In this document: positions 22,630 to 49,761 of the stretch, one piece after another
How the letters are laid out: the number at the start of each line of letters is the position of its first letter
Position numbering within the stretch: position 1 is the first letter of the stretch
Origin: Halorubrum sp. BOL3-1
GTDB taxonomy: Archaea > Halobacteriota > Halobacteria > Halobacteriales > Haloferacaceae
Length of the DNA: 64,000 nucleotides
Direction: 5' to 3'
Assembly (NCBI RefSeq): GCF_004114375.1
Contig: NZ_CP034692.1
Span: 2,170,001 to 2,234,000 of the forward strand
Program-made: the position numbers and the translations under genes
Notes under the pieces: generated by a model
Told to the model about the DNA's origin: nothing
The model's input: only the letters and a program-made list of their open reading frames with translations
Database searches by the model: none

Positions 22630-22720
22630 TACGTCGGGGGTCGCGGCCGAGGCGATTAAAATGCGCGGAGCGCGCGCGGCGACGCCGTCGACGTCTCGGT
22701 CGCTCGGCTGTACGTGGTCA

Positions 22721-22728
22721 TTTATAAA
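22721..22728 (+). promoter_or_regulatory. TATA box at the head of the multi-hairpin repeat
   Basis: TTTATAAA is a strong archaeal TATA element. Read on the plus strand, transcription would begin around 22748-22755, exactly where the first arm of the hairpin repeat begins. Being palindromic it could instead serve the EEP gene on the minus strand. Confidence 0.45.
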
Positions 22729-22743
22729 TTGCGGATCGACAGG

Positions 22744-23061
22744 GACACTCCCGAAGCCCCAGTCGCGAGGCGGGCGCACGCTCGTTGCGCGCTTCAGTCG
22801 CTCACTTCGTTCGCTCCTTCCAGTGCTTACATCACCTGCGCCCGCCTCGCGACTGCCCCTTCGAGTCCCACCCGATCGCACAGTACCTCACACCTCCCCA
22901 GCCTCGTCGCTCGCTCTGGGCTCCCTCCGGTCGCCCAATCGCTCGCGACTCCCTCGCGCGTGCTCCTCGCGGCCGCCTCCGGCGGCACGCTCGCAGGCAC
23001 GCAGGGAGGCGCGATGCGCCTCTTACAGCCGGCGGCAGAGCCGCCGGCGACGCCACCGCAC
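22744..23061 (+). repeat. Multi-hairpin intergenic repeat, full copy 1
   Basis: No protein is supported. A main stem is formed by CGAAGCCCCAGTCGCGAGGC... (from 22752) and its complement at 22837-22865 (GCCTCGCGACTGCCCCTTCG). It has 19 paired bases and a CCCC/CCCC internal loop. The stem encloses a 60-nt segment ending GTGCTTACATCACC. Downstream come the conserved CCTCACACCTCCCCAGCCTCGTC, a GTCGC...GCGAC hairpin, CTCGCGGCCGCCTCCGGCGGC, GAGGCGC-GAT-GCGCCTC, a 9-bp GCCGGCGGC/GCCGCCGGC hairpin (23028-23048), and the end GCCACCGCAC. The same order recurs at 49505-49761. Confidence 0.75.
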
Positions 23062-49504: not shown

Positions 49505-49761
49505 CCGCCGAAGCCCCAGCCGGGAGGCGGGCAGAGGCGACGTAAGCACCGCAGCGAGGGAGCGAGAGCGACCGAGAGAGGAGCACACCGAGCGTCCGCC
49601 CGCCTCCCGGCTTGCCCCTTCGAGTCCCCCCGCACAGCAACGCACGGCACCTCACGCCTCCCCAGCCTCGTCTGCGGCTCCCGTCGGTCGCCGCAGACTC
49701 CCTCGCGCGGCGCTGCTTCGCGGCCGCCGAGGGCGGCCGCTCGCAGGCGCGCGCCACCGCG
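49505..49761 (+). repeat. Multi-hairpin intergenic repeat, full copy 2
   Basis: Same order as copy 1. The stem is CGAAGCCCCAGCCGGGAGGC... (from 49509) with its complement at 49598-49623. The loop segment 49533-49597 is the reverse complement of copy 1's loop type (reads GGTGCTTACG on the opposite strand). Then CCTCACGCCTCCCCAGCCTCGTC, an 8-bp GTCTGCGG/CCGCAGAC hairpin, CGGCCGCC-GA-GGGCGGCCG and the end GCGCGCCACCGCG. The rest of the gap shows no gene. Confidence 0.75.

Follow-up and report, generated by a model that had tools for sequence, protein, structure and literature searches.

Uncatalogued, modular GC-rich repeats with fixed linkers and variable hairpins in Halorubrum and other haloarchaea

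Two intergenic elements in a 64,000-nucleotide stretch of the genome of Halorubrum sp. BOL3-1 (contig NZ_CP034692.1, positions 2,170,001 to 2,234,000; hereafter the window) belong to a family of repeats of ~250-330 bp, made of three hairpins, P1, P2 and P3, joined by linkers of fixed sequence. Both the fold and the membership of the family are established at the level of the sequence. The explanation that we prefer, and to which we give about an even chance, is that this is a new modular, GC-rich haloarchaeal family of small interspersed repeats, whose copies spread non-autonomously, are homogenised by recombination and act via a folded strand, probably as RNA. The genome holds ~125 copies, where an earlier note on this DNA had described two.

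Those two copies, at 22744-23061 (copy 1) and 49505-49761 (copy 2), do lie between genes as the note had placed them, and its description of the main stems, with two differing base pairs both restored on the other arm, and of further hairpins changed on both sides, holds on re-reading the sequence (Table 1). The note had passed over two features. In copy 2 the inner loop of P1 (about 49539-49591) runs the other way round: it is the reverse complement of its counterpart in copy 1 and opposite in orientation to almost every other copy. The P3 hairpin of copy 1, whose 3' side ends at a sharp right boundary (...GCCACCGC), contains a nested 49-nt double-hairpin insert with no target duplication. 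In copy 1, P1 encloses a loop of 58 nt and has the conserved internal loop GCCCC/GCCCC.

Table 1. Coordinates, in the window, of the parts of the two repeat copies
Feature	Copy	Position	Strand	Sequence or structure
Leader unit	1	22702..22751	+	GCTCGGCTGTACG...TTTATAAA at 22721-22728...ACACTCCC
Hairpin P1	1	22752..22863	+	arms 22752-22778 / 22837-22863, AGTCGCGAGGCGGGC with complement
Conserved unpaired linker	1	22886..22905	-	minus strand reads GAGGCTGGGGAGGTGTGAGG
Hairpin P2	1	22906..22949	+	hypervariable cassette, GTC...GAC
Conserved string	1	22950..22957	-	minus strand reads GCGAGGGA
Hairpin P3	1	22956..23059	+	outer arm GCGCGTGC at 22956-22963, then inner hairpin
Nested double-hairpin module in P3 3' arm	1	23003..23051	.	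GGCACGC^GCCACCGC
Hairpin P1	2	49509..49622	+	main arms 49518-49538 / 49592-49612, AGCCGGGAGGCGGGC with complement; inner loop inverted
Conserved unpaired linker	2	49650..49669	-	minus strand reads GAGGCTGGGGAGGCGTGAGG
Hairpin P2	2	49670..49698	+	GTCTGCGGC...GCCGCAGAC
Conserved string	2	49699..49706	-	minus strand reads GCGAGGGA
Hairpin P3 and right end	2	49705..49760	+	ends ...GCGCGCCACCGC

In the orientation of the earlier note, the element consists of leader units, P1, a linker ending CCTCACRCCTCCCCAGCCTC, P2, TCCCTCGC and P3. The leader is built of units of 51-69 bp, one to four of which stand in tandem in other copies. The outer pairs of P1 are CGAAG/CTTCG, or CAAAG/CTTTG in many copies from other species, and P1 has a long stem besides the conserved internal loop; the outer arms of P3 are GCGCGTGC/GCACGCGC. 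Conservation among aligned copies ends abruptly after ...CGCGCCACCGC, which gives the family its sharp right boundary. Arrays of leader units, often containing TTTATAAA, are found in the stretches L276 (about 1000-1250) and L005 and in copies of the genome G016 near L363; in one species (L276) the leader is an exact triplicate of its unit. Several copies carry a different flank, CAGTACAG...GATCTGnnGATCnG, before GCGGTGGCGCG. In the BOL3-1 genome (G000) they lie on contig C3, near 602826, 735081, 780836, 2005888, 2719584, 2818942, 2859328 and 3314672; those at 602826 and 735081 are identical over the whole match to the covariance model described below and ~40 bases before it, which suggests a recent duplication or conversion.

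Double-hairpin modules with recurring stems, such as GAGAATC/GATTCTC, GCCGGCG/CGCCGGC and CGTGGCGC/GCGCCACG, sit inside P1 or P3, or in the interval between P2 and P3. They form a separate, mobile-looking set, nested either way round and with their short loops in both orientations, and were seen in copy 1 and in the stretches L271 (1356), L274 (2104-2200) and L293 (2197). Mitochondrial double-hairpin elements likewise consist of two hairpins a few bases apart with many versions of the stems, a likeness of description and not of sequence; unlike them, the nested modules are archaeal and lie mainly inside a larger repeat.

A BLAST search with copy 1, a check proposed with the original observation, finds dozens of relatives dispersed in the same chromosome. 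A covariance model (R1), built from the P3-P2-linker half, matches G000 at 130 places at E<=0.1, of which 124 pass E<1e-3; contig C3 holds them all. The other three contigs of this genome have no match, against 12 expected at chromosomal density, and neither does the segment of C3 from 2.93 to 3.30 Mb, against 15 expected. All 52 Halorubrum genomes, named species among them, carry the repeat, while elsewhere in the same family the threshold of E<=1e-5 is reached in only 5 genomes, each having 1-7 matches. Two fixed anchors around a hairpin, GCGAGGGA - hairpin - GAGGNTGGGGAGGNGTGAGG, make up a core pattern, which 49 of the 292 haloarchaeal genomes sampled possess. These represent 9 of 77 genera and at least 5 families (f1, f4, f6, f7 and f17 of the sampled set), with up to 157 exact matches in one genome; most haloarchaeal genera lack the core, and reversed-pattern controls gave no match. 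The linker GACGAGGCTGGGGAGGYGTGAGG is likewise found in other haloarchaeal families, with zero matches to its reversed-pattern controls. In 20 stretches from outside the genus, the order P3 - GCGAGGGA - P2 - linker is kept and recognisable in most, around different hairpins and with a different downstream hairpin. Most, but not all, inter-anchor segments of the cross-genus list form hairpins (mean of 8.3 Watson-Crick pairs vs 3.9 when shuffled); several of the Halorussus type are GA-rich and form none. Since Halorussus plasmid records carry the core, f17/g17 is probably Halorussus. In Halorussus-type genomes (L385, L396), core copies occur in facing pairs within about 150-200 bp, flanking an inverted repeat, CAGTAGCTAGCTTC...GAAGCTAGCTACTG.

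Halorubrum plasmids searched with copy 2 gave no match, nor did phage records with the repeat. The 16-base linker pattern does match 10 viral contigs, none of which has the core, and a virus-borne repeat was rejected, these matches being due to chance. The note knew of no named family for the element, which agrees with a search of Rfam 15, where gathering and loose thresholds returned chance matches only: the repeat is like Rfam structured RNA families in its covarying stems joined by fixed linkers, but no Rfam family reaches threshold. The papers searched contain no description of it.

With genes called by a simple codon-usage gene caller, none of the 124 copies in G000 overlaps a predicted gene. 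Relative to the minus strand of the element, the upstream gene is co-directional in 62 cases and opposed in 61-62, and the downstream gene is opposed in 80 and co-directional in 43; a terminator or fixed 3'-UTR device was rejected, because the directions of neighbouring genes do not fit. The G-rich linker was also considered as a Shine-Dalgarno mimic, but its C/T position does not favour the pairing. In the stretches compared, about 10 of 15 copies are common to G000 and one of two other genomes (G167 or G016), in the same place and orientation, and the rest are absent there; that about two thirds of the sites are shared between species points to slow turnover. At the site of copy 1, the intergenic gap measures 81-154 bp in some relatives, and the element is present in others. 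Empty sites of the whole element are found, with flanks too diverged for exact junctions or a target duplication to be read, and internally deleted derivatives (L272; one in G016) keep both ends without the middle.

The pairing of the stems was examined in 45 copies at 39 named pairs, with shuffled copies and slid registers as controls. Stem cells are paired in 94.3% of cases, vs 85.2% in shuffles, which do not keep relatedness, so that an excess over them is not a probability, and 28-43% in slid registers. Two-sided changes affect 165 cells (50 in shuffles) and 20 of the 39 pairs (12.7 in shuffles), and the covariation score is 0.257 vs 0.097 in shuffles and at most 0.057 in slid registers. 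The arms also fit their own partners best: 9.1 of 11 positions pair in the inner arms of P1, vs 6.7 with the partner of a random copy, and 5.1 of 7 in P2, vs 3.2 with swapped arms. At orthologous sites in three species whose flanking genes are ~90% identical, however, the linkers are kept while P1, P2 and P3 are entirely different, and across genomes carrying the core the fixed strings usually enclose wholly different hairpins. This means that the "compensatory" changes are largely the replacement of hairpins and not stepwise point compensation. Inverted P1 loops occur in one other genome and in three G000 copies, including copy 2. Hairpins are thus exchanged and turned round as whole units, and a comparison of copy with copy overstates stepwise compensation. 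Copies also appear, from their sequences, to exchange segments. Hairpin replacement and recombination therefore explain much of the two-sided change. The earlier note had read it as the mark of selection on the fold: the fold is indeed kept, with extensive two-sided change, in many copies and in other genera, but such change between copies is not in itself a mark of point compensation.

The types of mismatch differ between the strands. For 185 distinct P2 cassettes aligned as hairpins in a strand-neutral way, the wobble-type mismatches, written on the plus strand of the element, are A.C in 38 cases and G.T in 12; the strict cases number 26 vs 7 (p=0.001), A.C corresponding to G.U on the opposite strand. 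The ratio is 25 to 14 in P1 (distinct contexts) and 61 to 33 in P3, and pair 11 of P1 is CG in 70 copies, TA in 37, CA in 35 and TG in none. The other P2 mismatches, as written, are pyrimidine-pyrimidine in 107 cases vs purine-purine in 14; on the opposite strand they become G.A, G.G and A.A. This asymmetry in all three hairpins favours folding of the strand opposite to the one written in the earlier note, most simply as RNA, and we favour an RNA of that strand as the probable folded molecule. Because gene conversion makes copies non-independent, the spread of a single haplotype may exaggerate the asymmetry; 13 of the P2 cases fall at one pair. The cross-genus P2 list, of 9 cases only, has no wobble asymmetry (A.C 6, G.T 3), and in one copy both strands fold better than shuffles (z about -3.2). 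Of the proposal that the element is a structured ncRNA or a DNA element acting through its fold, the conserved fold stands; the choice between RNA and DNA is not settled by sequence alone, though the mismatch types lean towards RNA.

From these data we infer a repeat that would spread rarely and non-autonomously, helped by a factor in trans for which the fixed linkers would be the recognition signal. One folded strand, most likely the RNA of the window's minus strand, would present P3 - GAGGGA - P2 - GAGGCTGGGGAGG(C/T)GTGAGG - P1. Inside one genome, the hairpins would be swapped and tidied as copies recombine and as strands switch within hairpins, which would produce two-sided changes, and selection for a foldable strand would keep the pairing. 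The repeat can be explained without any benefit to the host. Spread is supported by the more than 100 intergenic copies, the sharp right end, the filled and empty orthologous sites, the deleted derivatives and the linkers that cross families. The absence from the other contigs of G000, the 2.93-3.30 Mb segment, phage records and, as confirmed matches, viral contigs is odd for a mobile element.

That confinement of the G000 copies to the main chromosome would suit a structured RNA serving the host, transcribed with neighbouring genes or from its own promoters and acting in cis on mRNA ends or stability, or using the fixed linker to bind a common protein. So would the strand-specific wobble and purine-mismatch signal, the fixity of the linker across families and the two thirds of sites common to species in the same orientation. 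Of 82 copies, 11 have the TATA-like TTTATAAA ~30 nt before P1, but it is absent in most and common in the intergenic DNA of the genome, which limits its weight as a promoter of the element's own. There is no consistent gene direction (upstream gene co-directional 62, opposed 62), many sites are empty in relatives and most haloarchaeal genera lack the repeat, and we regard a host function of this kind as possible but rather unlikely. Alternatively, template switching and recombination at palindromes could make and keep the hairpins perfect as DNA, without selection on a folded strand, gene conversion keeping the linkers alike. The inverted loops in P1, P2 and nested modules, the whole hairpins replaced between orthologues and the tandem leader duplications, with the exact triplicate in L276, are what such a process would leave. 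A strand-neutral DNA process would not give strand-asymmetric mismatches, however, and linker identity across families needs more than conversion within a genome, so that we consider this explanation unlikely. A bolder proposal, which we put forward as a long shot, is that what moves or is selected is the transcript of the element's minus strand, a structured archaeal RNA comparable to a SINE. Its invariant single-stranded GAGGGA / GAGGCTGGGGAGGYGTGAGG signature would be bound by a conserved haloarchaeal protein and the RNA would be copied back into the chromosome, the hairpins being freely replaceable scaffolds.

The repeat could also descend from a known transposon. Neither a transposase or reverse transcriptase nor an autonomous relative was found. 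No terminal inverted repeats are seen at the aligned ends, the left end (..ACACCGCCGAAGCCCC) being unlike the reversed right end (GCGGTGGCGCG), and the terminal inverted repeats of a resident transposon that characterise a MITE are thus missing; palindromes do lie near the termini, P1 at the left and P3 at the right. The 15 TnpB loci and the single Y1 transposase locus of G000 have ends without similarity to the element. The sole match at a TnpB locus, L369 (G000:C3:2102162), is a copy of the repeat directly beside the tnpB gene, and an IS605 origin was rejected, there being no ends common to the element and these loci. REP/BIME repeats have a dedicated Y1 (RAYT) transposase beside them; G000 has only one Y1 gene, and its locus has no match to the element. 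The palindrome-associated transposable elements (PATEs) of Haloquadratum walsbyi, core-deleted IS605-type transposons moved by TnpA, are described together with small mobile repeats (SMRs) as non-coding, heterogeneous haloarchaeal sequences with near-terminal hairpins and nested small repeats, the PATEs having no terminal inverted repeats (PMC3119063), all of which fits the Halorubrum repeat. Unlike PATEs, set apart here by their description and not by comparing their sequences, it shares no end palindromes with the IS605-type elements of its genome and has a core conserved across families; we hold such an origin to be improbable.

In architecture, the repeat comes close to the BOX elements of Streptococcus pneumoniae (PMC3049150): more than 100 short intergenic copies in a narrow group, a modular build with optional internal units, a predicted fold if transcribed, slow turnover and other repeats nested inside. 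The likeness stops there, as the boxA-boxB-boxC sequence is streptococcal, from a different domain of life and unrelated, whereas the haloarchaeal repeat is GC-rich, with stems replaced wholesale and linkers fixed across several families. It resembles BOX- and PATE-type interspersed repeats in the way it works, but we place it in neither group. Its variable stems carry a warning: where paralogous repeats differ on both sides of a stem, the swapping of whole hairpins can be the cause. Any annotation of regulation, terminators or small RNAs in Halorubrum has to reckon with an uncatalogued repeat that is genus-wide, patchily crosses families and occupies more than 100 intergenic sites in each genome, and its invariant linker offers a concrete bait with which to look for the protein or RNA that would recognise it.
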